64,000 nucleotides of DNA from Arcuatula senhousia (Eukaryota > Mollusca > Bivalvia > Mytilida > Mytilidae): assembly GCA_963971305.1 (NCBI GenBank), contig CAXARO010001820.1:1-64000 (forward strand), read 5' to 3'. Shown here piece after piece: positions 14,501-64,000 of this stretch. A program made the position numbers and the translations under genes. Every line of letters begins with the position of its first letter. The first letter of the stretch is position 1. The notes beneath the pieces are model-generated. The model did no database searches. It was not told where the DNA came from and saw only the letters and a program-made list of their open reading frames with translations.

Positions 14501-17500
14501 CATGTTGCGGTCGTATCATGATGCGCTTGGCGAAGCTTTTTATTTATCCTTTAAATCACTTTTCATGCATATTTCCTTATATAGTGGCTTCTATAACCGT
14601 AAAATTTTACCAAAAAGTACTGACAAAACGAAACTAAATTTCTTTGGTAACTATTATTTTGTTTTGCCAGTTTATTGAAAATAATCCTAAATTTGTATTA
14701 TTTCACTATAAACAAATCATCAATGGCCACCTTATTTGAATATTGTGGATTATTTACAATTTTTGTCTCGCCTGTGACGAATAGTGGCGGAAGGCGAGAC
14801 ATAGGTATTACTTTCCGGCGGCAGCGGCGTAAACTTTTTTGTAAGACTTTTGTGGACACTGAATTGCTTGAAAAGTATAAAAGCAAGGTATTTGATATTG
14901 GTTATATAGACAGTTGAGGTTATGGTCTACGCAACTGTTACCCTGCTATTTGACCCTGATCCCATTTTCATGCTCCAGTGACTCTGTAAACTTAGACCTT
15001 TTTACAGGCTGAAAACTTTCTTGTAAGACTTTTCTGGACAGTGAATTGCTTGAAAAGTATAAAATCTAGGCATCTGATATTGGTTATATAGACAGTTGAG
15101 GTTATGGTCTACACAACTGTCTTTGTGCCGAGTGACCCTGACGCCATTTCCACACTCCAGTGACTCTGTGAACTTAGACTATTTTACAGGCTGAAAACTT
15201 TATGTAAGACTTATGTGGTCAGTGAATTGCTTGAAAAGTTTAATAGCTAGGCATTTGATATTGGTTATATTGACAGTTGAGGTTATGGTCTAGGAACTGT
15301 TACCGTGTCGTGTGACACTGACCCCATTTCCATGCGCCAGTGACTCTGTGAACTTAGACCTTTTTGCAGGAACTATAAGTCATATGTTGATGAAACTTGG
15401 TATGCATATGCCCCAGTAGTAGCTTAGTAAATCTGCATCCCCATCTTTTGAACTTGACCTTGATATTTTTCTAAAAAATGCCTGACCAAATGACTGGCAA
15501 AATTTTTCAGCTTTCCAGAAGTCTGAATACAGGGATGTAAGTACTTTCATTTTGTTCATTGTAAATCAATTAGGATGCTGGAGGTTAGAATGGCAACAAG
15601 TCAAAATATAGCATGCCATACGACCTCCAATGTTGTTGGAGTATGTTTGGGACATTACTGGCTATGCTTTTGATTGTATTTTAAATGAATAGACCTACAG
15701 TGCAAATGTCTCTTCCTACCCAGCACAAAAGGGTCCATTTAACATAACTGAACGCTTGGCCATTGATATTAAGATGGATTAACATCATTATGGAACAAAT
15801 TTATTGTATTATTCTTAAATTTCTCGGGAACTACATAAAAGATCCTTATGAATTTGCATGTATGTATGCCAGAGATTCTGAAGGTATTTTGATTATTACT
15901 GGACCGATCAACAATTTTCAAGCAATTTCAGCAATATTTTAATAAAAATTCCAAAATTATTACTGGACAAAACCAATTTTTACCAGACATTTGGTTCGGT
16001 CCGACAGACTATCAGTATCACTGTATGCTAGTTCAAGGGCTAAAAGATTTGCTCTTATTTAATATCTGTATGTCTGAGATACTTGGGTTATATTTTTAGG
16101 TTGTATTGTGACCGTCCAAACCATGTTAACTTCAAATACAGACGCTTCTCAACAGACAGTTGGCAGCCTGAAAATGATGATCAGCAGTTGGAGTTGTTTG
16201 AGTTGAATTTGAATGGAGATCATATCTCTCCTCCAGGTGCTCATTATTATATTGCATGTTATGTGTTGTTGGGGTGGCAACAATTAGTTTTTGGACCATA
16301 ACTCAAAAAGTATTCTCAAATAATCTTGAACTCAAATAATATTCAGTTTGGTAAAGCTTTTGAATACTGCGGAATATGACAAAAGAAACATGATAAATGT
16401 TTTAAGGCCAAAATAAAATATATGTCTGTTTCCGATTGCCCGACCTACCTGGATTAAGAAGCCCCTACCTTAAACATTTTATTGATATGTGTAAAAAATT
16501 CTTTTTAGCTCACCTGACCCGAAGGGTCATGTGAGCTATTGTCATCACTTGGCGTCCGTCGTCCGTCTGTCGTCCGTCAGTCGTCCGTCTGTCTGTAAAC
16601 TTTTTCAAACGTTAACTCCTCTGACACCATAAGTCCAATTGAAACCAAACTTGGTGTGGTTGATCTTTAGGGTATGGCCTACAAAACTATTGTTCGGATT
16701 TTCGATTTTTCAAAAAACATGGCTGCCGTGGCTAAAAATAGAACATAGGGGTAAATTGCAGTTTTTTTGCAAATGATCAGCATGACAAGATCTATCTACC
16801 CTGAAATGTTGGAGAAAATCTGGCAACCCATGTAGGAGTTATTGCCCTTTTTCTGGATTTTTTCTTAATTTTCAACTTAGTTTATAGAATATCTCAAGAA
16901 CAGTTTGAGATATCAGTGAAATGTAAATTGCATATTGTGCAGAACATCAAGATCTGCAAAATATGTAATTGGGTCAACCTTGTAGGACCATTTATTTTAG
17001 GAGTTATTTCCCTTTTTTTGCAAATTGATCATTTTACTGTGTTTTTTTATGATTTTACAATAAAAAAAATTGTTTTTGAAGACAGGAAAGTTTGTTTCAT
17101 TATAATGGCTTCAGCTCAATCAGAGCTTTAGGTCATAGAAATCAGGTGAGGGATACAGGCTCCTTAGAGCCTCTTGTTTTGTGAACTCAATTCCTCTTAG
17201 ACCGCTTGATGGATTTTGATAAAATTTTGTAGGATTGTTTGTCATGATATGTAGTTGATCATATTGCACCACCATTTTGATTCGACATTTTTTGTACGAG
17301 TTATGGGACTTTATCGACCTTGTTCATTTTAGGTCATAGGAACACTTTGTGAGCTCAACACCTCTTAGACCGCTTGATGAATTTTGATGAAATTTTGTAG
17401 GATTGTTTGTCATGATATGTAGTTGATCATTTTGCACCGCCATTTTGGTTCGACATTTTTTGTAAGAGTTATGGGACTTTATCGACTTTGTTCATTTTAG

Positions 17501-20500
17501 GTCATAGGAACATTTTGTGAGCTCAACTCCTCTTAGACCGCTGGATGGATTTTGATGAAATTTTGTAGGATTGTTTGTCCTGATATGTAGTTGGTCATAT
17601 TGCACCGCCATTTTGATTCAACATTTTTGGTAAGAGTAATGGGACTTTATCGACTTTGTTAATTTTAGGTCATAGGAACACTTTGTGAGCTCAACTCCTC
17701 TTAGACCGCTGGATGGATTTTGATGAAATTTTGTAGGATTGTTTGTCATGATATGTAGTTGATCATATTGCACTGCCATTTTGATTCGACATTTTTTGTA
17801 AGAGTTATGGGACTTTATCGACTTTGTTCATTTTAGGTCATAGGAACACTTTGTGAGCTCAACTCCTCTTAGACCGCTGGATGGATTTTGATGAAATTTT
17901 GTAGGATTGTTTGTCATGATATGTAGTTGATCATATTGCACTGCCATTTTGATTCGACATTTTTTGTAAGAGTTATGGGACTTTATCGACTTTGTTCATT
18001 TTAGGTCATAGGAACACTTTGTGAGCTCAATTCCTCTTAGACCGCTTGATGGATTTTGATGAAATTTTGTAGGATTGTTTGTGATGATATGTAGTTGATC
18101 ATATTGCACCGCCATTTTGATTCGACATTTTTTGTAAGAGTTATGGGTCTTAGACTGCTTGACAGATATTTATTTATATTCATTACTTTGCTGTTTGTAA
18201 TATTTTATATGCACCTTTGATGCGGCAGTGGACATAGCCATGTGTAACATGTCCTTGTTAATCTTAATCCGCTTATCAGTCCTGTAAAATTCAGAAATTG
18301 GTCCAATAAGTCCTGGAATTGTGCGGTACAAAATGTGTATGAATCGTGATATATGAAACTTGGTATATAGATAGAACACCATATGAAGATATGCATACTT
18401 TCAAGAAAGTTTGATACTCCAAATTTTGTAGGAGTACATCCCTTTATACTTTATAGTAAAAATTTTCTGAAAATTTGCTTTTTTCATTTCATTTCGAATC
18501 TGAACAGAATTTAAAAAAAAAATGGTACATGTTTATTGATAGAGCATAAATATTCTGTATGTTTTTCTGTGTACTGGTGAAATCATATAAAAATGATATA
18601 ATAATAGTAATAATAATAATAATAATTATAATAATCAAAGCGTCATATATAAATGTGCATATTACCAGAAAATTTTGTTCCTTCAAATTTTGTTGGAGTT
18701 GTGGCCAAACTTGATTATATTGTTGAAATCTCTGTAAACCACAACAGACTGAACATAAACAAAACAATATTATACAAAAATTTGGGAAACATGAGTGAGA
18801 CATTGTTTTTCAAAATGTAGCTCTCTTCTTTTGAAAGGTGTTCCCAAGTATGTGACGCCACACTATGAAGCTGCACGGATGGAATCTGTTAGATCAGCTA
18901 TTGAAAAGACAAAGACATTTCTAACATTTGATCAATTTAATTGGTGGAAAGATTTTTTGGAAAATCCAGATCAGTATGTGAATCGGCAATTAGTATGGCC
19001 TTTACTGAAACTGAAGAAGGTGAACAGAGTTCTAGATATACCAAAAGTTCCAGAAAGCACACAACCATCATGCATAAATAGCATGATAGTAGCTGAAGGT
19101 GTTGTGAGAGAGGTAAGCATTATTTATGTTTTTATGTTGCTGCAATGTGTTGCAGATTTTTTAAATTTGCAAAATCTTCACATACTTGACAGTTTGTTTT
19201 ATGTGGTGACATTGATATTGTATATCATATCAATATTATTATCATTAATGTTTATAATTCAAACAAGAAATTGCATGCTAAGCATATCCCAACTCGTTTC
19301 AACAACTTATTTGACTTGACAAACAGGAAGTAGATGTTCTACAAACCCCAAAAAGGGTAGATCTGTACAACTCATTACTGTTAAGGTGTATACCAAATTT
19401 CAAATCAACCCCTATAGTAAAAGATGAAAAATCTGTAACAAAACTTTTGGATGGAAGGATGGAAAAGGTGATTGCGATATTGGCCCTCTTTATAGAGTGG
19501 CGGTATAGTATGATATAATCTAGAAATTACTGCAACACTTATGAAAGATATTACTGTATGGTTTCTTTTTTAGCTCACCTGACCCAAAGGGTCATGTGAG
19601 CTATTGTCATCACTTGGCGTCCGTCGTCCGTCTGTCCGTCCGTAAACTTTTCAAACATTAACTCCTCTGACACCATAAATCCCACTTATACTAAATTTAG
19701 CACACTTGATTATTGGCATTAGTGCTACAAAACTGATGCTTGGAATTTTGATTTTTCGAAAAACATGGCCGCTGTGGCTAAAAATAGAACATAGGAGTAA
19801 ATTGCAGTTTTTGCAAATAACTCAAAAACCGTCACAGATATCAAAATTTTGGCAGAGGGTAAAAGTGATCAGCATGTCAAGATCTATCTACTCTGAAATT
19901 TTGAAGAAGATCCAGCAACCCATGTAGGAATTATTGCCCTTTTTCCAGATTTTTTCTTAATTTTCAACTTAGTTTATTGAATATCTCATAAATGGTTTGA
20001 GATATCAGTGAAATTTGCATATTGTAAGGAACATCAAGATCTACAAAATATGTACCATTTATTTTAGGAGTTATTTCCCTTTAAAGGTGAAAATTGATGA
20101 TTTTTACTGTGTTTGTTTTTACAATTTAGAAAAACTGTTTTTGAAGACAGAAAAGTTTGTTTCATTATAATATTGCCTCAGCTCAATCAGGGCTTCAGGC
20201 CATAGAAATCAGGTGAGCGATTCAGGCTTCTGGTAGCCTCTTGTTATTAGGATATACTACTTTTGCATAGTATTGTATTTTATATATTTTGTAGTAATAT
20301 AACTAATATAAATGTGAAATTCAAAACATTCAATTTCTTTTGAAAAGGAAATCTATTGAAAATAAGTTACTTATGTCCCTTTGGTACAATATCTGATTAA
20401 TGATTCACTTTAATTTTAGGGTGAAAGAAAAGAAAATCCTCCCTTAAGACTAATGAAGATAAAAATAAATTGTACATTTATATAACTACATAATTTTATG

Positions 20501-26809: not shown

Positions 26810-27847
26810 GATCACCACAGCTGCAAATTCAAGGGTGGTGCAATCCGACAATAGTTTTTGTCTCGCCTGCGACGAAAAGTCGCTGAAGGCGAGACATAGG
26901 TATTGCTTTCCGGCGGCGGCGACGGCGGCGGCGGCGTAAACTTTTTTGTAAGACTTTTGTGGACAATGATTTGAAAGAAAAGTATAATAGCTGGGCTTCT
27001 CATATTTGGTATATAGACAGTTGGGGTTATGGTCTACGATACGCACCCCATGCCATTTGACCCTGACCCCATTTTTATGGTTCATTGACTCCGTGAACTA
27101 AAATGTTTTTTCGGGCCAAAGAACTACTTTGTAAGACTTTTGTGGACAATGATTTGAAAGAAAAGTATAATAGCTAGGCTTCTAATATTTGGTATATAGA
27201 CAGTTGGGGTTATGTTCTATGCAACACAACCGATGCTGTGTGACCCTGACCCCATTTTCATGGTTCAGTGACTCCGTGAACTTAGATGTTTTTTTCGGGC
27301 CAAAAAGCTACTTTGTAAGACTTTTGTGGACAATGATTTGAGAGAAAAGTATAATAGCTAGGCTTCTGATATTTGGTATATAGACAGATGGGGTTATGGT
27401 CTACGCTACGCACCCCATGCCGTGTGACTCTGATCACATTTTGATTGTTCAGTGACTCTGTGAACTTAGATGTTTTTTCGGACCAAAAAACTACTTTGTA
27501 AGACTCTTGTGGACAATGATTTGAGAGAAAAGTATAATAGCTAGGCTTCTCATATTTGGTAAATGGACAGTTGGTGGTTGATTTTCAATGATGTTTCAAT
27601 AATTGACATAAATGCAGTCTTTGCCATTGGTTTACTTCTGGTATCTGTGATTAAATTTACAAAGTATGTGCATTTTCTATTTAAATCATCATTTTTCTAT
27701 TAATAAAGTAAAAATGAAATTATTAGAGCACAAAATTCAAGGGTAGGGGATAAAAATTCTAGAGTGTGGGTAAAAATTCAAGGGTGGGAAAAAAAATCAA
27801 GAGTGGAGGAGCACCAACCTTGAATAGCCTGTGCATGGTGAACCCTG
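26810..27847. mobile_element. TIR element (hAT-like ends) inside the minisatellite
   Basis: The left end CAGGGATCACCA and right end TGGTGAACCCTG are inverted with one mismatch, and the similarity continues inward to TTCAAGG(G/T)TGGTGC. CAGGG-type ends are common in hAT elements, but no transposase frame or clear target duplication is seen. A family B element is nested within it. Confidence 0.65.
26853..27580 (+). mobile_element. Hairpin-capped element, family B copy 5
   Basis: An intact cap (GTCTCGCCTGCGAC, loop GAAAA, then GTCGC...GGCGAGAC) is followed by a strong CGGCGGCGGCG patch. Four units of about 180 bp with GTAAGACTTTTGTGGACAAT and TATTTGGTATATAGACAG follow. No 3' cap is present. A minus-strand frame of 100 codons across the cap is a shadow. 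Confidence 0.78.
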
Positions 27848-28646
27848 TAGTCGCTATCTGCGGACTTGTGTATAATCCGTTGAATGATATGGTCGCTATC
27901 TGCTGTCTAAATGTGTTTAGTCCGTTGAATAATATGGTCGCTATCTGCTGTCGTGATGTGTTTAGTCCGTTGAATAATATGGTCGCTCTCTGCTGTCTTC
28001 ATGTGTTTTCTCCGTTGAATAATATGGTCGCTCTCTGCTGTCTTCATGTGTTTTCTCCGTTGAATAATATGGTCGCTATCTGATGTCTTGATGTGTATAT
28101 AGTTTGTTGAATAATATGGTCGCTATTTGATGTCTTGGTGCGTTTAGTTCGTTGAATAATATGGTCTATATCTGCTGTCTTGGTGTGTTTAGTCCGTTGA
28201 ATAATATGGTCGCTATCTGCTGTCTTGGTGTGTTTAGTCTGTTGAATAATATGGTTGCTATCTGCTGTCTTGGCGTGTTTAGTCCGTTGAAAAATATGGT
28301 CGCTATCTGCTGTCTTGGTGTGTTTAGTCTGTTGAATAATATGGTTGCTATCTGCTGTCTTGGTGTGTTTAGTCTGTTGAATAATATGGTTGCTATCTGC
28401 TGTCTTGGTGTGTTTAGTCCGTTGAATAATATGGTCGCTATCTGCTGTCTTGGTGTGTTTAGTCTGTTGAATAATATGGTTGCTATCTGCTGTCTTGGTG
28501 TGTTTAGTCCGTTTAATAATTAAATGATAGCTATATATACTGTCTTGATGTATATATTATGTTGAATACTATGGTCGTTATATACTGTCTTAAGTCCATT
28601 GAATAATATATATATATGGTTGCTATCTGTGATCTTGCGTATACAG

Positions 28647-31380: not shown

Positions 31381-34300
31381 CAAAATGCACTCTGTTTAGA
31401 TAGAATTGAGAATTTAACTTTATTCAACTTTTTTCCACTTTTATGCTCATGGTTTAGCCGTATTAAGAACCCGAGACTTTTTACCCATCCAGTAGAAGTA
31501 ATTGATGCCGAAATCAAAGGTTTCAGGAAAAAATCATATCCATCTTTCATTGCACTGGCATTACTTGTCCTTTATGATAATGATCTCGAGAAAGAGAAAC
31601 TGAAGAGTACAGAAACGGATGAAATGATTGAAGAAATTTGCAAGGAATGTGAAATAGAACAAGCCAATAGAATTCGACCAGAATATGTGACCTTTAAAAG
31701 ACTCATGGGAGTTTTTATCAGCGAATCAGATCACGGCTACACAGCAGTCCATGATAAGATGTTTGATATCATTGCCATTTCTGTTTCGTCATTAATCATG
31801 GGTGTCATTATAAAGTATGCTAGCTCTTCGTTTGTCAGAAATCGATTACAGTTTCAATCTTTTGGAGAGAACAACCTTGCCAATGTTATATATGTCCATG
31901 TAGAACAGGAAGACTTGTATCTAAACAGACAAAAGTCGGAGATTCAAAAACAAAATTATTGGGTCGTCTTTGGAAACCTGAATACAAAGTATGAACAGTA
32001 TCGCAAACGATTTATTGAATATATAGAGCATCACTTTACTTCAAAGGATTTCCAACAAAACTCTGAAAGTATCACCCCACTGCATGTTGTTGCTTCACTT
32101 GGCTATATAGAATATGTCAATTATTTCGTCAAAACCAATAGGTTTCATATGAACATAAGTGATAGCGACGGGAGAACACCAATGGCGACTGCGTGTGAAA
32201 AGGGACACCTTTCCGTTGTTCAATATCTTCATACCTATGTCAAACAATTCCCTAAGATGATGAAAACCACTAATGAAGGTTGGTCTCCATTACATCTGGC
32301 TGCATATTATGGACATATTGATGTGTTGCAGTTTCTTATACAAATAAAACTAGATATCAATTTAACAACCAATTATAACTGTACACCATTCGTTCTAGCC
32401 AGTGCAAAGGGACATTATGAGACAGTCAAACATTTGTTAGACATGAATGGAGACACTTTAGATAGTCAGGTAGATACAAGGATAAAGGCTGAGAATGGAT
32501 CCTCAGCTTTACATGCTGCATGTTATTTTGGTCATACAAAGGTTGTAGAACTACTAATTAATGTCGGTATGAATGTCAATCAAACCACTGATAACAACTA
32601 TACACCATTGTTTCTAGCCAGTCAAGAGGGACATTATGAGACAGTCAAACATCTGTTAGACATGAATGGAGACACTTTAGATAGTCAGGTTGATACAAGG
32701 ATAAAGAATGAGGGCGGATGGACAGCTTTACATGCTGCATGTTCTAATGGTCACACAAAAGTTGTAGAACTACTTATTAAAGTTGGTATGAATGTCAATC
32801 AAACCACTGATAAGAACTTTACACCATTGTTTCTAGCCAGTCAAAATGGACATTATGACACAGTCAAACATCTGTTAGACATGAATGGAGACACTTTAGA
32901 TAGTCAGGTAGATACAAGGATAAAGACTGAGGATGGATGGACAGCTTTACATAGTGCATGTTATTATGGTCACACAAAAGTTGTAGAACTACTTATTAAT
33001 GTTGGTATGAATGTCAATCAAACCACTGATAAGAACTTTACACCATTGTTTCTAGCCAGTCAAAATGGACATTATGACACAGTCAAACATCTGTTAGACA
33101 TGAATGGAGACACTTTAGACAGTCAGGTAGATACAAGGATAAAGACTGAGGATGGATGGACAGCTTTACATGCTGCATGTTTTAAAGGTGATACAAAAGT
33201 TGTAGAACTACTTTTTAATGTTGGTTTGAGTGTTAATGACCAAATTAATAATAAATGTACACCATTGTATCTAGCCAGTGAAAATGGACATCATGATACA
33301 GTCAAACATCTGTTAGACATGAATGGAGACACTTTAAACAGTCAGGTAGATACAAGGATAAAGACTGAGGATGGATGGACAGCTTTACATGCTGCATGTT
33401 TTAAAGGTCATACAAAAGTTGTAGAAATACTTTTTAATGTTGGTTTGAGTGTTAATGACCAAATTAATAATAAATGTACACCATTGTATCTAGCCAGTGA
33501 AAATGGACATCATGAAACAGTCAAACATCTGTTAGACATGAATGGAGACACTTTAGATAGTCAGCTAGATACAAGGATAAAGGATGAGGATGGATCCTCA
33601 GCTTTACATGCTGCATGTTATTTTGGTCATACAAAGGTTGTAGAACTACTAATTAATGTCGGTATGAATGTCAATCAAACCACTGATAACAACTATACAC
33701 CATTGTTTCTAGCCAGTCAAGAGGGACATTATGAGACAGTCAAACATCTGTTAGACATGAATGGAGACACTTTAGATAGTCAGGTTAATACAAGGATAAA
33801 GAATGAGGGCGGATGGACAGCTTTACATGCTGCATGTTTTAAAGGTCATACAAAAGTTGTAGAAATACTTTTTAATGTTGGTTTGAGTGTTAATGACCAA
33901 ATTAATAATAAATGTACACCATTGTATCTAGCCAGTGAAAATGGACATCATGATACAGTCAAACATCTGTTAGACATGAATGGAGACACTTTAGATAGTC
34001 AGGTAGATACAAGGATAAAGAATGAGGGCGGATGGACAGCTTTACATACTGCATGTTCTAAAGGTCACACAAAAGTTGTAGAAATACTTATTAATGTTGG
34101 TATGAATGTCAATCAAACCACTGATAAGAACTTTACACCATTGTTTCTAGCCAGTCAAAATGGACATTATGACACAGTCAAACATCTGTTAGACATGAAT
34201 GGAGACACTTTAAACAGTCAGGTAGATACAAGGATAAAGACTGAGGATGGATGGACAGCTTTACATGCTGCATGTTTAAAAGGTCATACAAAAGTTGTAG

Positions 34301-36090
34301 AAATACTTTTAAATGTTGGTTTGAGTGTTAATGACCAAATTAATAATAAATGTACACCATTGTATCTAGCCAGTGAAAATGGACATCATGATACAGTCAA
34401 ACATCTGTTAGACATGAATGGAGAATTAATAGATAGTCAGGTAGATACAAGGATAAAGACTGATGATGGATGCACAGCTTTACATGCTGCATGTTTTAAA
34501 GGTCACACAAAAGTTGTAGAACTACTTATTAATGTTGATATGGATGTCAATCAAACCACTAAATATAACTTTACACCATTGTATCTAGCCAGTCAAAAGG
34601 GACATTATGAGACAGTCAAACATCTGTTAGACATGAATGGAGAATTAATAGATAGTCAGGTAGATACAAGGATAAAGACTGAGTATGGATGCACAGCTTT
34701 ACATGCTGCATGTTTTAATGGTCACACAAAAATTGCAGAACTACTAATTAACGTTGGTCTAAATATAAATGATAATGCCTTGGACAACAGAACACCAATT
34801 CTACTAGCTATTGAAAGTGGCCATCATGATGTTGTCAAACTTCTCCAGGATATGGGTGCAGAGACAGGGAACAATGAAAGACATGCAAATACTAATAGGA
34901 AGGATGATGATAGTATAGAAGATGACTCGAGAGGCAATGATCCAAATGTGAAGAATAGTACAAATGAAGAGGATACAAATATCAAAGCTAGTACAAATAA
35001 AGAGGAGGATACAAATAATGAGGATAGCACAAAGATAGAGGAGGATACAAAAATGAAGGATAGTACAAATAAAGAGAAGGATACAAATATCAAAGCTAGT
35101 ACAAATAAAGAGGAGGATACAAATATAGAGGTCGATGCAAGTATGGTGGATAGCCCGAATATAGAGGAGGATATAAATATAGAGGTCGATACATGTATGG
35201 AGGATAGTACGAATATAAAGGAGGATATAAATATAGAGGTCGATACTTGTATGGGGGATAACACGAATATAGAGGATATGAATATAGAGGTCGATACAAG
35301 TATGGAGGATAGTACTAATATAAAGGAGGATACAAGTATAGAGGTCGATACAAGTATGGAGGATAGTACAAATATAGAGGAGGATACAAATATAGAGGAG
35401 GATACAAATAAAGAGGTCGATACAAGTATAGAGGTCCATACAAGTATAGAGGATAATACTAATATAGACGATACAAATATAGAGATCGATACAAGTATTG
35501 CAGCTAGCACAAATAAAGAGGAGGATACAAATACCAAAGCTAGTACAAATAAAGAGGAGGATACAAATACCAAAGCTAGTACAAATAAAGAGGAGGATAC
35601 AAATACCAAAGCTAGTACAAATAAAGAGGAGGATACAAATACCAAAGCTAGTACAAATAAAGAGGAGGATACAAATACCAAAGCTAGTACAAATATAGAG
35701 GAGGATACAAATACCAAAGCTAGAACAAATAAAGAGGAGGATACAAATACCAAAGCTAGTACAAATAAAGAGGAGGATACAAATACCAAAGCTAGTACAA
35801 ATAAAGAGGAGGATACAAATACCAAAGCTAGTACAAATAAAGAGGAGGATACAAATACCAAAGCTAGTACAAATAAAGAGGAGGATACAAATACCAAAGC
35901 TAGTACAAATATAGAGGAGGATACAAATACCAAAGCTAGTACAAATAAAGAGGAGGATACAAATACCAAAGCTAGTACAAATAAAGAGGAGGATACAAAT
36001 ACCAAAGCTAGTACAAATATAGAGGAGGATAAATATAGGAAAGATGACACAAAGGGATGGCTTAGCAGCTTTACAGACTTTCTCTGGTAA
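31381..36090 (+). CDS. STAND (nSTAND3-like)/ankyrin-repeat protein, 5' incomplete
   Basis: One frame is open from 31381 to the stop at 36088-36090. The first Met is at 31624, giving 1488 residues. But 81 in-frame codons before it carry family features (FNFFPLLCSWFSR and SYPSFIALALLVLYDN), so the true protein begins further upstream. From memory this matches the region after the nucleotide-binding domain of mollusc nSTAND3-ankyrin proteins, which are putative intracellular sensors. The P-loop NTPase domain is not visible. The order is a winged-helix-like region (to about residue 140 from Met), then about 26 ankyrin repeats (residues 147-1080), then an acidic Thr/Asn/Lys/Glu repeat tail and the end GWLSSFTDFLW. 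No signal peptide is seen. AATAAA occurs at 36371 and 36431. Either the gene has unseen 5' exons or it is 5'-truncated. Confidence 0.8.
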   Translation, partial: QNALCLDRIENLTLFNFFPLLCSWFSRIKNPRLFTHPVEVIDAEIKGFRKKSYPSFIALALLVLYDNDLEKEKLKSTETDEMIEEICKECEIEQANRIRPEYVTFKRLMGVFISESDHGYTAVHDKMFDIIAISVSSLIMGVIIKYASSSFVRNRLQFQSFGENNLANVIYVHVEQEDLYLNRQKSEIQKQNYWVVFGNLNTKYEQYRKRFIEYIEHHFTSKDFQQNSESITPLHVVASLGYIEYVNYFVKTNRFHMNISDSDGRTPMATACEKGHLSVVQYLHTYVKQFPKMMKTTNEGWSPLHLAAYYGHIDVLQFLIQIKLDINLTTNYNCTPFVLASAKGHYETVKHLLDMNGDTLDSQVDTRIKAENGSSALHAACYFGHTKVVELLINVGMNVNQTTDNNYTPLFLASQEGHYETVKHLLDMNGDTLDSQVDTRIKNEGGWTALHAACSNGHTKVVELLIKVGMNVNQTTDKNFTPLFLASQNGHYDTVKHLLDMNGDTLDSQVDTRIKTEDGWTALHSACYYGHTKVVELLINVGMNVNQTTDKNFTPLFLASQNGHYDTVKHLLDMNGDTLDSQVDTRIKTEDGWTALHAACFKGDTKVVELLFNVGLSVNDQINNKCTPLYLASENGHHDTVKHLLDMNGDTLNSQVDTRIKTEDGWTALHAACFKGHTKVVEILFNVGLSVNDQINNKCTPLYLASENGHHETVKHLLDMNGDTLDSQLDTRIKDEDGSSALHAACYFGHTKVVELLINVGMNVNQTTDNNYTPLFLASQEGHYETVKHLLDMNGDTLDSQVNTRIKNEGGWTALHAACFKGHTKVVEILFNVGLSVNDQINNKCTPLYLASENGHHDTVKHLLDMNGDTLDSQVDTRIKNEGGWTALHTACSKGHTKVVEILINVGMNVNQTTDKNFTPLFLASQNGHYDTVKHLLDMNGDTLNSQVDTRIKTEDGWTALHAACLKGHTKVVEILLNVGLSVNDQINNKCTPLYLASENGHHDTVKHLLDMNGELIDSQVDTRIKTDDGCTALHAACFKGHTKVVELLINVDMDVNQTTKYNFTPLYLASQKGHYETVKHLLDMNGELIDSQVDTRIKTEYGCTALHAACFNGHTKIAELLINVGLNINDNALDNRTPILLAIESGHHDVVKLLQDMGAETGNNERHANTNRKDDDSIEDDSRGNDPNVKNSTNEEDTNIKASTNKEEDTNNEDSTKIEEDTKMKDSTNKEKDTNIKASTNKEEDTNIEVDASMVDSPNIEEDINIEVDTCMEDSTNIKEDINIEVDTCMGDNTNIEDMNIEVDTSMEDSTNIKEDTSIEVDTSMEDSTNIEEDTNIEEDTNKEVDTSIEVHTSIEDNTNIDDTNIEIDTSIAASTNKEEDTNTKASTNKEEDTNTKASTNKEEDTNTKASTNKEEDTNTKASTNKEEDTNTKASTNIEEDTNTKARTNKEEDTNTKASTNKEEDTNTKASTNKEEDTNTKASTNKEEDTNTKASTNKEEDTNTKASTNIEEDTNTKASTNKEEDTNTKASTNKEEDTNTKASTNIEEDKYRKDDTKGWLSSFTDFLW
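32506..34850 (+). repeat. Eleven 222-bp ankyrin modules (two repeats each)
   Basis: Each 74-residue module reads as an ALHAAC...GHTKVVE(L/I)L repeat, then a TPL(F/Y)LAS...GHY(D/E)TVKHLLDMNG repeat, then the linker DSQVDTRIK. The modules are almost identical at DNA level. Two sub-types alternate (NVGMNVNQTTD and NVGLSVNDQINN), which points to recent tandem duplication and gene conversion. Module number is likely variable between alleles. Confidence 0.9.
35505..36030 (+). repeat. 36-bp coding minisatellite (12-residue repeat)
   Basis: About 14 nearly identical copies encode STNKEEDTNTKA. The only common variant is Lys to Ile (NIEED). A more diverged version reaches back to about 34960. Because the unit is a multiple of three and lacks stops on either strand, two long minus-strand frames (about 400 codons each) are open across it; these are shadows. 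Confidence 0.95.
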
Positions 36091-40604: not shown

Positions 40605-40812
40605 CAAAAGAAGAGCTTTCGTTTGGGTAGTGTTACTTTTCCATGTGAAGTACAATTACAACTTATTCTGCTAACACAATGTATGAAGCGTCGCAAGGTG
40701 TTTTAATTACAGAGCTATTGAATTGAATATACACACGGATTCATCAGAGTTTTTGATAAATTCCATAGCCTTGTGATATTTATGCATGGTCTATTTATAG
40801 CTATCTCTAACG

Positions 40813-42640
40813 TGTTCATGAAGAGCTCAATGAGCACTAAAGCAACATCCATTTTTAACAACGCTGATGTTGCAAAAACACTGTCCACCTTACACGACAA
40901 ATATGTTGTTGTACCTGCAGACAAAGCACCAAATAACATCATTTTTGTGTGCAAGAAACACTATATTGAGTGCTTGACAGTTGAATTAGGGGTTAGTTGT
41001 ACCAACAATAGCAGCACGTACACAGCTACAACATTGTCTAAGGAGGAAATTATTGACAATCATAAATCTGTCATTTCCTCCTTCGGGCTCTCTGTTGGTG
41101 CTGACAATGATGACATTCCATCCCTGTATTGGATTCCTAAATTACATAAAAATCCATACAAACAGCGCTTCATTGCAGGGTCATCGAAATGTACCACTAA
41201 ACCTCTAAACCTCTTTCAGTCCTGTTGACCTCAATACTGACGGCAATAAAATCCGGCCTCCAGAAATATTACGATTGTTGTTATTCTAGAAATGGTGAAT
41301 TCGAAAGAACTGATGGAGATTCTTAACTCTAAATCAGTTTCATCTTGCAACAGCATCAAGACTTTCGATTTCTCCACACTTTACACTTCTATTCCACATG
41401 AACAACTCAAGTCACGATTGGCACAGCTGATTAAACGCAGCTTTTTCAAAAAGAATGGAAAACGCAGGTACAAATATCTGGTAGTCGGTTATAATAAGAC
41501 TTACTTCGCCATCAATGAGTCTAAAAGTAAGAACAAATTTACAGAAGATCAAATAATCGACATGCTCAACTTTCTTATAGACAACATATTTGTTCAGTTT
41601 GGTGGACGTGTTTTTCAGCAAACAATAGGGATTCCAATGGGCACCAATTGTGCACCTTTGCTTGCTGATTTGTTTCTTCATTCATATGAAGCAGACTTCT
41701 TACAATCTCTTCTAGACAAAAAAGATCGTAGACTAGCTCTCTCTTTTAACCTCACGTTCCGTTATATTGATGATGTCCTTTCACTGAACAATTCTCGATT
41801 TGGTGACTTTCTCCATCTCATATATCCCCCGGAACTTGAGATAAAGGACACAACGGATTCTAGGAAGTCTGCTTCATATTTAGATCTACATCTCGAAATA
41901 GACTCTCAAGGAAAACTATCAACAAAGCTCTATGACAAATGTGATGACTTCAACTTCCCAATCGTCAACTTTCCCTTCGTGTGTAGCAACATTCCGTCCG
42001 CTCCAGCTTATGGAGTTTACGTATCACAATTGATTCGTCACTCCAGAGCTTGTGGGAGTTACATCGATTTCCTTGGCAGAGCGTCACGTTTGACACAGAA
42101 ATTGCTAACACAGGGTTATGTTGCTCCTCGGTTGCTGTCTTCACTCAAGAAATTTTACGGTAGACACCATGTACTCATAGATAAATATGGGATTTCTATC
42201 TCTCAGATGAGTGCAGATGTCGGTTTGTCATATGGTTTTGTTTTGTCTTCCTTTACCGGATTTGACACACTGAATTGTAAATTGGCAGCGCGGCGGGTGT
42301 GCTATAGCAGGCAGGAACCGCTTACTCTTCCGGAGCACCCGAGTTCACTCTTGTTACGACTTGAGTTCGCGTTGTTGATTTCTGTTCGGTTGTTTTTATG
42401 TTTTGTGTTTCCTTGTGCTGTTCTTGTTCATGTTTACCGGTTTTGTCGTTGCCTTTTCGGACTTTTGACAATCGAATGCCCCTTTGGTGCCTCTGCTTAT
42501 TTGATAAATGTAATCCAACTCATATTAGTCTTTCAATATACGACCTGGTATGCAAGATATCTTTGTTATATTCTTTCTGTTCTGCCTTTACAAACATTTT
42601 ATTAAATATGATTAAAACCTTGATTTTGAAAACTTTATAA
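40813..42640 (+). pseudogene. Penelope-like element with reverse transcriptase, 5'-truncated and broken
   Basis: The first frame (to 41228) has the N-terminal RT part (PSLYWIPKLHKNP). The second (41292-42605) has FDFSTLYTSIPH, GIPMGTNCAPLLADLFL, FRYIDDVLSL and SYLDLHLEID, the ordered RT motifs of Penelope-like elements. Two lesions lie between them. One is an 8-bp tandem duplication at 41199-41214. The other is a 23-bp gap at 41297/41298, judged against the copy at 47418. Together they are a multiple of three, so only the part between them is misread, but it contains a stop. No GIY-YIG endonuclease domain is recognisable after the RT. The last about 100 codons look like translated 3' UTR (CTTACTCTTCCGGAGCA is shared with the other copies). 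The 5' end is fused to a 470-bp repeat unit. Confidence 0.85.
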
Positions 42641-44900: not shown

Positions 44901-45423
44901 TCATGTGCTTGTATGCAAATACGGGATTTCTATCTCTCAGATGAGCACAGATGTTGGTTTGACATAGAGTTTTGTAATGTCATCCTTTCCGGATTTGACC
45001 AACACTTAATCGATCTTTGGCAACGTGACGGGTGTGCTATAGCAAGCAGGAACTGCTTACTCTTCCGGAGCACCTGAGTTCACTCTCGTTTCGACTTGAG
45101 TTCGCGTTGCTGAATGCGGTTTTGTTGTTATGTGTGTGTGTTTTATGTTGTTATGTGGTTTGTTTTGTTGTGATGATTTTTTGTCTGCCGGTTTTGTCTT
45201 TGTCTTCACGGTTTTATGATACTGATTACCCCTTTGGTACACCTTTGCTTCTTTCGTAGTTTAGTTTCTCGTTCGACATTTTATGGTTTTATTCTTTGCT
45301 CTTCATATTCATATAGTGTTTGGCAATTTTAACCTTTGGTAGAGCGCCTCTGATGAGTCTTGAATAGACGAAACGCGCGTCAGGCGTAGCAAAATTTATT
45401 GTCTGGAACTTTGTTGTAATTTA
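44900..45423 (+). mobile_element. Penelope-like 3' end with hammerhead
   Basis: It starts in the last RT codons (KYGISISQMSTDVGLT). It runs through the shared 3' UTR (CTATAGCAAGCAGGAACTGC, CTTCCGGAGCACCTGAG, TACCCCTTTGGTAC), then a unique stretch, and ends with a hammerhead motif and ATTGTCTGGAACTTTGTTGT. A 75-codon frame here is UTR. Confidence 0.75.
45344..45387 (+). ncRNA. Hammerhead ribozyme (type I, minimal stem III)
   Basis: Stem I is GCGCCT (45344-45349) with AGGCGT (45382-45387), six pairs including one G-U. The core is CTGATGA (45350-45356). Stem II is GTCT/AGAC with loop TGAAT. The second core is GAAA (45370-45373). Stem III is ACG/CGT with a two-base loop. The cleavage-site C is 45381. 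All core bases are present. Very short stem III and location at a Penelope-like 3' end match the hammerheads known from Penelope-like elements. Self-cleavage is predicted, not shown; such minimal forms often act as dimers. Confidence 0.85.
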
Positions 45424-46851: not shown

Positions 46852-47152
46852 GTTATAACTTATAATATTAGACCGCAAAGCCCAGCCAATACACGTTATA
46901 ACTTATATTATTAGACCGCTAAGCCCAGCCAATACACGTTATAACTTATTTTAGTAGACCGCTAGGCCCAGCCAATACACGTTATAACTTATTTTAGTAG
47001 ACCGCTAGGCCCAGCCAATACACGTTATAACTTATTTTATCAGACCGCTAAGCCCAGCCAATACACGTTATAACTTATAATATCAGACCGCTAAGGCCAG
47101 CCTATACACGTTATAACTACTTTATTAGACCGCTAAGGTCAGCCAATACACA
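46852..47152 (+). repeat. 43-bp minisatellite, seven copies
   Basis: Units start at about 46852, 46895, 46938, 46981, 47024, 47066 and 47109. Each contains GTTATAACTTAT, TAGACCGCTA and CCCAGCCAATACAC. The copies differ at a few positions only. Confidence 0.9.
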
Positions 47153-47409
47153 TTACAAAACACTGATGACCTGATTTGAAATACACTTTTTTTTGGAAAA
47201 CGACTTATCTCTCTGAAATTTTTAAATATGCTTGGGATTTCAAAGAAATAGGAAGTAGAAAATCCATAACAAAAAAATGTATATCATCATGTGCTATTAT
47301 ATGTTTTATCAGCTGAACCTTTACAATATGCCATAAGAAAATGTAATGAAAAAAAGGAATTGCTGTAACTAATACAAATGTAAGAAGCAGAGGTTCCAAT
47401 GGGGCATCC

Positions 47410-59468: not shown

Positions 59469-60040
59469 GCACGTATTGATTGAAGCTACTAGACTGATCT
59501 GAATCTGAACTAATTATCAGTTGTTAAAATGCCAATTTAATGTAATTGTTTTTTTCTCAAGGACACCTGTGAGGTCGAGATTCTTAGATAGCATTCAGAC
59601 ATTTTCACTTGCTTTCTCAGACAATGAGGTCACATAAACCAGTAGTAGTAATTTTTCATAATTGTTTTTAGTAGATTTTTCTAATAAATTTTAGTTGCAT
59701 TGATATTTCTTTTTCTTTCCATTTTGGAAATGAATTGTTTGCAACATTTTAAACCCACCAACGTTGTCCTAACCCATAAGCGAATTTGAGATCAAGGTTA
59801 TACTTACAATTTTCAACTCTATCAGACAAGGACTATAAAAAGGATTGTTGTTTGAACTTAGTCGGACGGAGCAACGAGATAAAACATCTCTCTATTACGC
59901 TTGATGTCCGTCCGTCCGTGTCTATTTGTCTTGAAAATATCCGGAAAATAACTTGAAATACCTTAAAAGAATTAAACCACATTTGAACAGCTGTTTATTA
60001 TCACAAGGTAAAGGTAAAATTTGACAAAATTGATCAGTCG
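59469..60040 (+). other. 3' flank; one triplet-patch fragment
   Basis: AATAAA at 59683 is a candidate poly(A) signal. At 59870-59930, ACATCTCTC and GATGTCCGTCCGTCCGTGTC look like a cap and patch scrap of a hairpin-capped element. Confidence 0.45.
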
Positions 60041-60051
60041 TTGCAAATTAA

Positions 60052-60393
60052 ATTGTCTGGAATTTTGTTGTAATTTATATTTCTAACATCTGTGATGGTT
60101 AACGCTGCTGGTGGAGTTTTAATTCCCCTATTTCGGTCCACTCCGGCACTAACACTTTTGTGTTGACGAACTTATTAAAGCTATAAACTATCTGTTTTAA
60201 TCTACCCCAGACAATGGTTGGTCTTAGTCATAATCTGGTTTTTAGTTTTGGCATTTTGGGGTATAATTTTTCTAAGTATTCATACAGTTTTTGACATTTT
60301 AAATTTTAGTAGAGTGCATCTGGTGAGTCTTAAATAGACGAAACGCCCATCAGGCATAGAAAAAATAATTGTCTGGAACTTTGTTGTAATTTG
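60052..60393 (+). mobile_element. Retrozyme-like unit with decayed hammerhead
   Basis: The post-hammerhead phrase ATTGTCTGGAA(T/C)TTTGTTG occurs at 60052 and again at 60368, 316 bp apart. The hammerhead homologue lies just before the second (60314-60357). The same phrase follows the intact hammerhead at 45398. This looks like one monomer of a hammerhead-delimited element. Confidence 0.6.
60314..60357 (+). ncRNA. Decayed hammerhead ribozyme
   Basis: Stem II GTCT/AGAC and GAAA are kept. The essential core reads CTGGTGA instead of CTGATGA, stem III has a C-A mismatch, and stem I has an A-G mismatch. Predicted inactive. Confidence 0.75.
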
Positions 60394-60808
60394 TATATCC
60401 AGCAAAAATCTCCAAATATTAAACATGTTCTTTCGTAGTTAATAACTTCTTCGATTTACTGATATTTAAAAGTTATTACAATTGTACAGCATTCAACATG
60501 TATCAATGTTCATAGGACCTATTAAAATTCATAATCAATAAATATTTAATAATGATAATAAGTGCAAATTCCATAAAAAAGACCAAAAACAAATAAACTC
60601 CGATAAAGACTAATGAAAACTAATAAAGAATACATCGATGCATAGCTTTATTCATGAATAATAAACTTATCGATTAACACTTAAAATAGAATAAAAAGAT
60701 GAGCCCTGTTGACACGTTGACAATGTGGGGAGAGGGAAACAGTTAAACATTATTGATTACATTGTGATCTTTACACGGAATGTAGACAAAAACTACAAAC
60801 ACGACTTA
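60394..60808. other. No gene seen
   Basis: AT-rich flank of the hammerhead array; nothing recognised. Confidence 0.4.
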
Positions 60809-60982
60809 CGAGTACTGGCATATGTGTTGGAAAGACACAGTTTACATATTTCCAAAATTTGACAACGTTTGGCCGTTTCTTTAAAAAATGATAAATTTAT
60901 GTTTGGTCATTGTTGTAATATTCTTGGCATTTTTTTAAAATCAAATCTAATATTCTACCGGTTTTCCAAGTTTCTACTCCTA

Positions 60983-61024
60983 GCGTGTCTGATGAAGGTT
61001 AATCCAGAAAAGCGCTTCACACGC
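60983..61024 (+). ncRNA. Hammerhead ribozyme 1 of 5 (390-bp array)
   Basis: Stem I is GCGTGT/ACACGC (six perfect pairs). The core is CTGATGA at 60989-60995 and GAAA at 61007-61010. Stem II is only GG/CC plus an A-A contact around TTAAT. Stem III is AAG/CTT with a two-base loop. Cleavage C is 61018. Outer pairing of TTTC and ACT (60971-60978) with AGT and GAAA (61025-61031) may extend stem I. Confidence 0.82.
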
Positions 61025-61373
61025 AGTGAAATTTTACTTTTGTATATTATTAAAATCATTTCAATATGTGGATCGTGTCTTTTTGGCCCATATTCCATAT
61101 TCTTTCGTTTTTAATATTATTTCAGAGTTTGGCTTTAGTGCCGTGTGGAGGTCGTAGAAAGCTTCCCCGTGCTTCAGTTGTATGCTCTTATATATTTGCG
61201 AGTACTGGAATATGTGTTGGAAAGACACAGTTTACATATTTCCAAAATTTGACAACGTTTGGCTGTTTCTTTAAAAAATGATAAATTTATGTTTGGTCAT
61301 TGTTGTAATATTCTTGGCATTTTTTTTAAAATCAAATCTAATATTCTACCGGTTTTCCAAGTTTCTACTCCTA

Positions 61374-61415
61374 GTGTGTCTGATGAAGGTTAATCCAGAA
61401 AAGCGCTTCACACGC
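61374..61415 (+). ncRNA. Hammerhead ribozyme 2 of 5
   Basis: Same as copy 1, except stem I reads GTGTGT: one C-G pair becomes a G-U pair, so the fold is kept. Core and stem III are unchanged. Confidence 0.82.
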
Positions 61416-61763
61416 AGTGAAATTTTACTTTTGTATATTATTAAAATCATTTCAATATGTGGATCGTGTCTTTTTGGCCCATATTCCATATTCTTTCGTT
61501 TTTAATATTATTTCAGAGTTTGGCTTAAGTGCCGTGTGGAGGTCGTAGAAAGCTTCCCCGTGCTTCAGTTGTATGCTCTTATATATTTGCGAGTACTGGA
61601 ATATGTGTTGGAAAGACACAGTTTACATATTTCCAAAATTTGACAACGTTTGGCCGTTTCTTTAAAAAATGATAAATTTATGTTTGGTCATTGTTGTAAT
61701 ATTCTTGGCATTTTTTTAAAATCAAATCTAATATTCTACCGGTTTTCCAAGTTTCTACTCCTA

Positions 61764-61805
61764 GCGTGTCTGATGAAGGTTAATCCAGAAAAGCGCTTCA
61801 CACGC
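61764..61805 (+). ncRNA. Hammerhead ribozyme 3 of 5
   Basis: Identical to copy 1 across stem I, both core segments, stem II and stem III. Cleavage C is 61799. Confidence 0.82.
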
Positions 61806-62153
61806 AGTGAAATTTTACTTTTGTATATTATTAAAATCATTTCAATATGTGGATCGTGTCTTTTTGGCCCATATTCCATATTCTTTCGTTTTTAATATTA
61901 TTTCAGAGTTTGGCTTTAGTGCCGTGTGGAGGTCGTAGAAAGCTTCCCCGTGCTTCAGTTGTATGCTCTTATATATTTGCGAGTACTGGAATATGTGTTG
62001 GAAAGACACAGTTTACATATTTCCAAAATTTGACAACGTTTGGCCGTTTCTTTAAAAAATGATAAATTTATGTTTGGTCATTGTTGTAATATTCTTGGCA
62101 TTTTTTAAAAATCAAATCTAATATTCTACCGGTTTTCCAAGTTTCTACTCCTA

Positions 62154-62195
62154 GCGTGTCTGATGAAGGTTAATCCAGAAAAGCGCTTCACACGC
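62154..62195 (+). ncRNA. Hammerhead ribozyme 4 of 5
   Basis: Identical to copy 1 in all motif positions. Cleavage C is 62189. Confidence 0.82.
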
Positions 62196-62544
62196 AGTGA
62201 AATTTTACTTTTGTATATTATTAAAATCATTTCAATATGTGGATCGTGTCTTTTTGGCCCATATTCCGTATTCTTTCGTTTTTAATATTATTTCAGAGTT
62301 TGGCTTTAGTGCCGTGTGGAGGTCGTAGAAAGCTTCCCCGTGCTTCAGTTGTATGCTCTTATATATTTGCGAGTACTGGAATATGTGTTGGAAAGACACA
62401 GTTTACATATTTCCAAAATTTGACAACGTTTGGCCGTTTCTTTTAAAAAATGATAAATTTATGTTTGGTCATTGTTGTAATATTCTTGGCATTTTTTTAA
62501 AATCAAATCTAATATTCTACCGGTTTTCCAAGTTTCTACTCCTA

Positions 62545-62586
62545 GCGTGTCTGATGAAGGTTAATCCAGAAAAGCGCTTCACACGC
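62545..62586 (+). ncRNA. Hammerhead ribozyme 5 of 5
   Basis: Identical to copy 1 in all motif positions. Cleavage C is 62580. It is the last motif before the array ends at 62682. Confidence 0.82.
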
Positions 62587-62682
62587 AGTGAAATCTTACT
62601 TTTGTATATTATTAAAATCATTTCAATATGTGGATCGTGTCTTTTTGGCCCATATTCCATATTCTTCCGTTTTTAATATTAT

Positions 62683-63164
62683 ATCTACTAACTGGTTGTA
62701 AGCACAATGATTTGAACGTGCTCCTTTTGGAAAAAAAAGACAATAAAATAACATAAACCCAGCGACTTCGTTTGATAACATATTTTCCTTTTTTATTGAT
62801 TTCATATTTTTAAGCGTCCATCTATCAAAAGTTGCAAAGTGAATAATACAGGAGTAAATTTAGAAGCGAGTGATCAAATATACCAGTACACGCGAAAACA
62901 TCTGTGTCTAAAGTTTGACACACACCAAATACAGAATACACATGTTAACTGGTGATTAGTAAATAAGAAAACACATTTTAAAAAATTGTGGCTCTTGATC
63001 CCTTGGATTTGGCTCGGTTCGAATACATTTCATTTTTTTTCGTGTTTTTCACACCCTTCTTAAACTATCTTACGAATTGAACGTATTTTCCTCTAGATCA
63101 CAGGAGAGAACTAAAAGAAGAAGAAATGATTACATGCAACTATGATTAAATAGTTATGAATTAA
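62683..63164. other. No gene seen
   Basis: AT-rich spacer between the hammerhead array and the minus-strand Penelope-like element. No hammerhead core is found here on either strand. Confidence 0.4.
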
Positions 63165-64000
63165 TTGAAAGAAGCAATGGTGTACCAAAGGGTAATCAGT
63201 ATCATAAAACCGTGAAGACAAAGACAAAACCGGCAGACAAAAAATCATCACAACAAAACAAACCACATAACAACATAAAACACACACACATAACAACAAA
63301 ACCGCATTCAGCAACGCGAACTCAAGTCGAAACGAGAGTGAACTCAGGTGCTCCGGAAGAGTAAGCAGTTCCTGCTTGCTATAGCACACCCGTCATGTTG
63401 CCAAAGATCGATTAAGTGTTGGTCAAATCCGTAAAGGATGACATTACAAAACTCTATGTCAAACCAACATCTGTGCTCATCTGAGAGATAGAAATCCCGT
63501 ATTTGCATACAAGCACATGATGTCGTCCGTAAAATTTCTTGAGTGATGACAACAACCTGGGAGCAACGTACCCCTGTGTTAACAATTTGCTTGTCAGCCG
63601 TGTAGCTCTATCAAGGAAGTCGTTGTACTCCCCACATGCTCTGGAATAACGAATCAATTGTGATACGTAAACTCCATATGCTGGAGCGGACGGAATGTTG
63701 CTACACAGAAAGAGAAAGTTAACTATTGGAAAGTTGAGGTCATCACGTTTGTCATAGAGCTTTCTACAAAGCCTTCCTTGTGTGTCAATTTCGAGAAATA
63801 GATCCAAATATGAAGCAGACCTCCTAGAATCTGTAGTGTCCTTTACCTCAAGTTCCTTCGGATATATGAGATGTAAATAGTCACCAAATCGAGGATTGTT
63901 TAGTGAAAGGACATCATCAATATAACGAAATGTAAGATTAAAGGATAAAGCAAGTTTGCGGTCCTTTTTGTCTAGAAGTGATTGTAAGAAGTCTGCTTCA
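63165..64000 (-). mobile_element. Penelope-like element, 3' part, continues beyond the window
   Basis: From right to left it holds the RT frame, the RT end, and the shared 3' UTR (GCTCCGGAAGAGTAAGCAGT, CTATAGCACACCC, GTACCAAAGGGTAATC). It ends near 63165. It is closely similar to the fragment at 44900-45245. No hammerhead follows within 480 bp. Confidence 0.82.
63454..64000 (-). CDS. Penelope-like reverse transcriptase, C-terminal part, open to window edge
   Basis: A single open frame of about 180 codons runs from the window end to a stop at 63454. It contains FRYIDDVLSLNN (the catalytic YIDD motif), SYLDLFLEIDTQG, SNIPSAPAYGVYVSQLIR and KYGISISQMSTDVGLT. No break is visible, unlike the copies at 40813 and 47410. 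It may belong to a more intact element to the right. As in the other copies, no GIY-YIG endonuclease is seen after the RT. Confidence 0.82.
   Translation of the reverse strand, partial: EADFLQSLLDKKDRKLALSFNLTFRYIDDVLSLNNPRFGDYLHLIYPKELEVKDTTDSRRSASYLDLFLEIDTQGRLCRKLYDKRDDLNFPIVNFLFLCSNIPSAPAYGVYVSQLIRYSRACGEYNDFLDRATRLTSKLLTQGYVAPRLLSSLKKFYGRHHVLVCKYGISISQMSTDVGLT

Follow-up and report, generated by a model that had tools for sequence, protein, structure and literature searches.

The tandem array at positions 60809–62682 (+ strand) of the 64,000-nucleotide stretch of the Arcuatula senhousia genome analyzed here (the window) is a copy of an element of a described kind, the retrozyme, whereby the family was matched by published descriptions only. 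Most probably it is a retro-inserted, non-autonomous, non-coding mussel retrozyme that was copied from a fixed internal start. This confidence covers the retro-insertion and the fixed start; whether a circle or a multimer served as template, and which enzyme copied it, are less certain. Retrozymes as such are already known, and what is new are the mostly fixed 3′ ends and the dispersed copies. For the proposed insertion of animal retrozymes by reverse transcription of circular RNA, a mostly fixed 3′ end ~98 nt past the cut, together with variable 5′ ends and near-blunt sites, provides a precise signature that one can look for in other genomes with retrozymes.

The array contains 4.8 head-to-tail units of 390–391 bp, as delineated by TRF (period 390, 4.8 copies, 98% matches), unit alignment and an unoccupied homologous site. 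A descriptor scan located five type I hammerhead motifs on the + strand, at 60983–61024, 61374–61415, 61764–61805, 62154–62195 and 62545–62586, with predicted cuts after C61018, C61409, C61799, C62189 and C62580, respectively. Their C3 residues (60989, 61380, 61770, 62160 and 62551) lie at steps of 391, 390, 390 and 391 bp. Each motif reads GCGTGT-CTGATGA-AGGTTAATCCA-GAA-AAGCGCTT-C/ACACGC, except that the second unit has GTGTGT, a single C-G to U-G change in stem I. The type I core, the C at the cleavage position and the stems are found in 5/5 units of the window, with six pairs in stem I, three in stem III and all core bases in place. The scan thus agrees with the initial annotation on the 390–391-bp steps, the complete core and the six-pair stem I. 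The three pairs that it assigned to stem III were likewise borne out, but its two-base loop was not: because the folding model does not permit a 2-nt loop, two pairs (AA/TT) closed by a GCGC tetraloop are the better reading of stem III. The weak GG/CC stem II also stood, with the addition of an A-A mismatch at its first position, the base of the stem, so that GG/CC are its only pairs; this feature, described as unusual, has a precedent in axolotl. Since AAGCGCTT is palindromic, dimeric pairing between two motifs is conceivable. As the five copies are near-identical, they count as one insertion rather than five independent observations.

The searched genome comprises 1.04 Gb in 1803 contigs, with C1–C14 of 48–86 Mb each. 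Allowing up to 3 mismatches, the motif has 5486 genome matches and a reversed control 0. Unit bases 1–18 match 67 places, present on each of C1–C14; the first six of these bases are the 3′ strand of stem I, and position 1 is, here as for all unit positions, the base that follows the predicted cut. CTTCACACGCAGTGAAATT, a pattern for copies that start at the cut, gave 3673 exact matches. The 18-base pattern was too variable for counting and was used to pick loci. Four samples were drawn. Sample A consists of 29 arrays, the window array included, from the best listed unit matches (40 of 773 candidates were scored), and is biased toward close copies. Sample B holds 20 of the first 26 chromosome-1 loci with an exact motif; of the six skipped, two belonged to A, and among the remaining four at least three have several units, so that this sample leans to short copies. 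Both were picked by cut-spanning sequence and therefore under-sample copies that start at the cut. Sample D was chosen from the 67 places by unit bases 1–18 only and holds 40 loci, the 27 left out being further units of the same arrays, sample A loci, the window, three unplaced contigs and one C14 locus; its loci are not all independent, as L144 and L145 share flanks, as do L140, L153, L154 and L155. Sample C comprises 20 pieces adjoining an exact control 42-mer, the first 14 chosen for a non-exact motif and the last 6 unconditioned; L114, which lacks a homologous motif, and L118, whose first bases are missing, were excluded, leaving 18. L061 is represented by the larger of its two pieces.

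In the window, the 3′ junction lies at 62678–62682 (+), 98–102 nt past the last predicted cut, at a position that most sampled copies share; the BLAST end, 105, extends through chance matches in the flank. The 3′ end falls at unit positions 91–106 in 25/29 loci of sample A, which include the window array, and in 18/20 of sample B, so that 43 of these 49 arrays stop 91–106 nt past the predicted cut, with a mode of 98–99. Sample D gave the same picture, with 30 of the 32 ends inside the fetched piece at 91–106 and two exceptions; the other eight pieces run on into further units. The six exceptions in A and B are L047, L050, L054, L055, L078 and L079, the last two sharing flanks and being duplicates of each other. 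By contrast with these fixed 3′ ends, the 5′ ends scatter, which argues against LTRs. The 5′ junction of the window array (60806–60809, +) corresponds to unit position ~178–181 and varies among loci; in samples A and B there is a peak at 151–172 (13/49), which may represent a reverse-transcriptase stop. Copies range from 139 bp to 7.5 kb, and 12/20 in sample B, from which some multi-unit loci were skipped, are 359 bp or less. In sample D, 39/40 copies extend over the cut position (38 as judged by script, and L129, with a small gap, by eye), while L128 starts at or near it.

Comparison with homologous sites revealed where the array went in. The joined flanks of the window array match C8 at 91% over 303 uninterrupted bases and C3 at 86%. 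The unoccupied C8 site reads CACGACTTATATCTAC continuously, and the array sits between CACGACTTA and TTATATCTAC, with a target duplication of 0–3 bp, at most TTA, that is ambiguous with unit sequence. In the C3 homologue ten bases are missing beside the site. As the target matches both C8:1827280–1827630 and C3:158630–158960 (86–91%, against the window contig C1770), the site is part of a duplicated or low-copy repeated sequence. For nine other loci the fetched DNA includes a paralogue without the insertion: five are near-blunt (L032, L036, L057, L058 and L062), three carry ~9–18 extra bases on the 5′ side relative to the unoccupied paralogue (L031, L052 and L068), and in the ninth, L077, the junction is ambiguous. 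Target duplications of at least 5 bp occur at 22/49 loci compared to 104/286 mismatched-flank controls, which is not clearly above chance, and there were none longer than 8 bp at the 49 loci. For metazoan retrozymes, target duplications longer than 4 bp are described as present "when present", i.e. as optional (PMC7229834).

The fixed 3′ end, the variable 5′ end, copies that continue across the cut and arrays that are absent from homologous sites together point to one internal start of reverse transcription, which in the window array would be the stretch 62678–62682. A circular or multimeric RNA template, and not satellite growth, fits these data. In the mechanism we propose, the hammerheads of the individual units probably cut a multimeric transcript, and the monomers would be closed to circles, as in published mussel retrozymes. 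Copying would fall to a reverse transcriptase provided in trans, most likely by a Penelope-like element, which would begin its cDNA at a single internal position ~98 nt beyond the cut, pass round the circle one or more times and stop at a variable place. The length of a single insertion could then lie anywhere between part of a unit and ~19 units, its 3′ end being fixed, its 5′ end variable and its target nearly blunt.

The window contains a candidate for the mobilizing element. Open reading frames at 40722–42605 (+) encode a reverse transcriptase of a probable Penelope-like element, an assignment based on a nearby hammerhead and on the reverse transcriptase motifs, which we take to be Penelope-like. 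The Pfam RVT_1 match for 41250–42605 (E = 1.8e-5) reaches 25 bits and thus falls short of the curated cut-off (29.6). A canonical type I hammerhead at 45344–45387 (+; Rfam RF00163, 36.5 bits) probably belongs to this element. Other genomic copies of the Penelope-like element have a common 3′ end at 45253–45259 (+), in ...GCTTCTTTCGTAG; of 20 pieces fetched from the 40 best-scored candidates, 19 stop at 45253–45266. Another shared 3′ end, considered at 45422, was dropped when 2/4 aligned pieces ran past it. Among the 120 matches listed for the local reverse transcriptase, the named mollusc matches are to Pinctada imbricata, at ~62% identity. A second, partial copy of the reverse transcriptase (63454–63999, − strand) runs off the window; it has the same motifs as 41250–42605 and by itself no Pfam match. 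Since the retrozyme unit codes for nothing recognized and has no reverse transcriptase, it could at most be a parasite of Penelope-like elements. Such elements are also present in the M. galloprovincialis genome that harbors retrozymes, and the same study proposed that the circular RNA of retrozymes is a template for a reverse transcriptase of non-LTR or Penelope-like type (PMC7229834).

A LINE-type retrotransposon or another reverse transcriptase, rather than a Penelope-like element, could instead be the mobilizing enzyme, which we regard as a distinct possibility, if short of probable. The repeats of Nematostella have LINE-like 15-bp target duplications (PMC4918200), and Pfam detected no endonuclease domain in the local reverse transcriptase frames or in seven relatives. 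However, the present mussel family seems to differ from Nematostella, in that no clear target duplications are found. Moreover, an internal start has been described for a Penelope-like element, PAc of the lizard Anolis. Its hammerhead cuts 26 nt after the start codon, while reverse transcription starts 111–118 nt into the open reading frame, where genomic copies end (PMC11167929); by our subtraction, the start is 85–92 nt beyond the cut, strikingly near the 91–106 of the retrozyme. PAc, which prefers AT-rich sites (PMC11167929), differs in being autonomous and protein-coding, whereas the retrozyme codes for nothing recognized. Also arguing against a LINE-type enzyme, TTCTTTCGT is present near the 3′ ends of both the retrozyme and the local Penelope-like element. 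This sharing was reached in 190/20000 shuffles and 48/13130 pairs of windows (~1% or less); the offset to the end differs between the elements, and another 10-base match between the two occurs elsewhere, so that the shared TTCTTTCGT may be taken as only a lead. We put forward, tentatively and with slightly less than even confidence, that animal retrozymes are copied in the Penelope-like way: the reverse transcriptase would recognize the circular RNA and start at a single internal site ~90–100 nt beyond the hammerhead, every array would preserve the outcome of a single round of rolling-circle reverse transcription, and retrozymes and Penelope-like elements would have in common a retrotransposition module made up of ribozyme and start site.

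Genomic DNA cannot separate a circular template from an uncleaved multimer. In the latter case the hammerhead would be weak or protein-assisted and dispensable for insertion, an alternative that we judge somewhat unlikely. It accords with the weak stem II and a predicted fold that is not a hammerhead, and with the 39/40 sample D copies that cross the cut position. In addition, hammerhead mutants of PAc still insert in vitro (PMC11167929), which keeps the alternative alive. In M. galloprovincialis, however, retrozyme RNA reaches high circular levels, mostly as monomer circles, and a cloned repeat self-cleaves at ~0.1 per minute (PMC7229834). Variation within arrays speaks to the same question. 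In 14 arrays of at least four units, 55 base changes are found in a single unit and 13 are shared between units; among indel columns, 192 are single (165 of these in L047, probably an end alignment artefact) and 16 shared. The mostly private base changes form a star pattern, which fits the origin of all units from one circle and counts against an uncleaved multimer, while the 13 shared changes, which lend that alternative some weight, indicate that some arrays were later altered by exchange or were copied from a multimer.

If the hammerhead were instead inactive, by chance or decay, the unit would be a SINE-like element. Its A-A mismatch and the Rfam results for the window would suit this explanation: Rfam did not call the array motif in the whole window with the gathering score as threshold, nor did it in 60000–64000 with E allowed up to 10. 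A whole-genome search with RF00008, in which the control was silent as well, gave no match and carries no weight here. The minimum-energy fold of the 42-nt motif piece is not a hammerhead, as GAAG pairs with CUUC at the cut side. Against an inactive hammerhead, the chance match rate is near zero. In 12 Mb of first-order Markov sequence scanned on both strands, with at least two pairs in stem II and a mismatch allowed at its first pair, there were 0 matches with stem I of at least 6 and stem III of at least 3 pairs; lowering these minima to 5 and 3 pairs gave 1 match (~0.005 per window), and to 4 and 2 pairs 8 matches (~0.04 per window). A mismatched hammerhead can also be active: HHR_Amex2 of axolotl, whose helix II has a basal U-U mismatch, reaches 22% cleavage within one hour when present in a monomer repeat, and its dimer shows more cleavage than the monomer (PMC7229834). 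HHR_Amex2 resembles the present motif in the helix II base mismatch and in a helix III of two pairs with a tetraloop, and differs in having U-U rather than A-A, in its amphibian host and in its ~350-bp unit. The motif region is moreover one of the more uniform stretches within the unit, with a mean diversity over 29 loci of 0.006 compared to 0.028 elsewhere; 30/390 circular 42-nt windows are lower, one of which is the stretch 71–112 around the 3′ end. On balance, an inactive hammerhead is improbable.

The initial annotation had named random core mutations in other genomic copies as an outcome that would count against it, and on this point the data are divided. The core is intact in 17/18 copies of sample C, a sample drawn mostly for non-exact motifs, and 3/27 changes fall in the 13 core positions, all of them in L110 (P = 0.016). 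Of the 40 copies fetched for sample D, eight have an incomplete or gapped motif; among the 32 ungapped motifs, 23 keep the core and nine have it changed, in keeping with the inactive-hammerhead explanation, and 11/25 changes are in the core, partly through one shared A-to-G subfamily. Core changes are also found in L047, L050, L051, L054 and L055. The retrozyme core is thus usually, not always, kept; the evidence for strong purifying selection on it is mixed, sample C having few core changes and sample D many. The genome-wide counts of motif and control 42-mer (5486 versus 3542) were discarded as a measure of conservation, since truncation at the 5′ side is enough by itself to depress the control count. 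The single wobble in stem I of the second copy had been taken as a hint of selection on RNA structure, a reading that gains no support, since in other genomic copies stem I also has changes that break pairs.

A subfamily of L140, L153, L154, L155, L156 and L162, several of which share a flank, has the A-to-G change at the first stem III base (15.1). Within a single unit of the window array, an inverted repeat pairs 61063–61097 with 61206–61240 (both +) and corresponds to helix 45–79/188–222 of the circular fold. Covariation in this repeat was not convincing, with no double changes and with 26 pair-keeping single changes versus 16 breaks. The same fold contains a predicted hairpin at 127–150, and the 5′-end excess at 151–172 lies just 3′ of it.

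The tandem units of constant length that are 98% alike, and the changes shared between some units, would suit an ordinary DNA satellite grown by unequal crossing-over or rolling-circle DNA with the hammerhead as a passenger, but this is highly improbable given places on all of C1–C14, fixed 3′ and variable 5′ ends, clean unoccupied sites and many copies below one unit (12/20 in sample B at 359 bp or less). A classical satellite evolves in place and has no fixed ends, so that the label satellite, used in the initial annotation, is misleading for what is a dispersed retroelement with mostly fixed 3′ ends and otherwise intact sites.

The array very likely belongs to a described family, the comparison with MN642551–MN642576 being by description and not by sequence. 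The genome of Mytilus galloprovincialis contains ~5000 type I hammerheads in retrozymes with repeats of ~350–390 bp (Cervera and de la Pena 2020, PMC7229834). These are like the present array in their mussel host, hammerhead type, repeat length and thousands of copies. The kinship with mussel retrozymes that had been suggested is therefore upheld, by the published type I repeats of ~350–390 bp and the 5486 motif matches found here, and the further suggestion of an undescribed family becomes unlikely, as the descriptions of M. galloprovincialis retrozymes agree in motif type, repeat length and copy number. The abstract and several main-text sections of PMC7229834 describe no fixed 3′ end or blunt site. 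As in metazoan non-LTR retrozymes in general, the 390-bp repeat is tandem (within a range of ~150–450 bp), dispersed, below 50% GC and non-coding: the GC fraction is 0.332, and the only stop-to-stop frame of at least 100 aa in the array, 62329–62676, has no Pfam match. Plant LTR retrozymes are similar in being non-coding, with a hammerhead in each repeat and a circular RNA intermediate, but their hammerhead is of type III, and they possess LTRs, along with PBS and PPT, and 4-bp target duplications (PMC4918200, PMC7229834).

Several other features are present in the window. Upstream of the array, a degenerate hammerhead of the same Penelope-like element lies at 60314–60357 (+), with A6 changed to G and a score of 17.3 bits, below the gathering score. 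Between it and the array, CATGTTCTTTCGTAGTTAATA at 60424–60444 is 86% like the retrozyme 3′ end over 21 nt. Many other tandem arrays, with TRF periods of 43–183 bp, are present, at 562–1261, 10294–12470, 17178–18151, 26938–28520 and 46852–47155. An ankyrin-repeat frame of 1569 aa at 31381–36090 (+) contains tandem units of 219 and 36 bp, and its best 22 matches listed are all Mytilus proteins, those of M. galloprovincialis and M. trossulus first.
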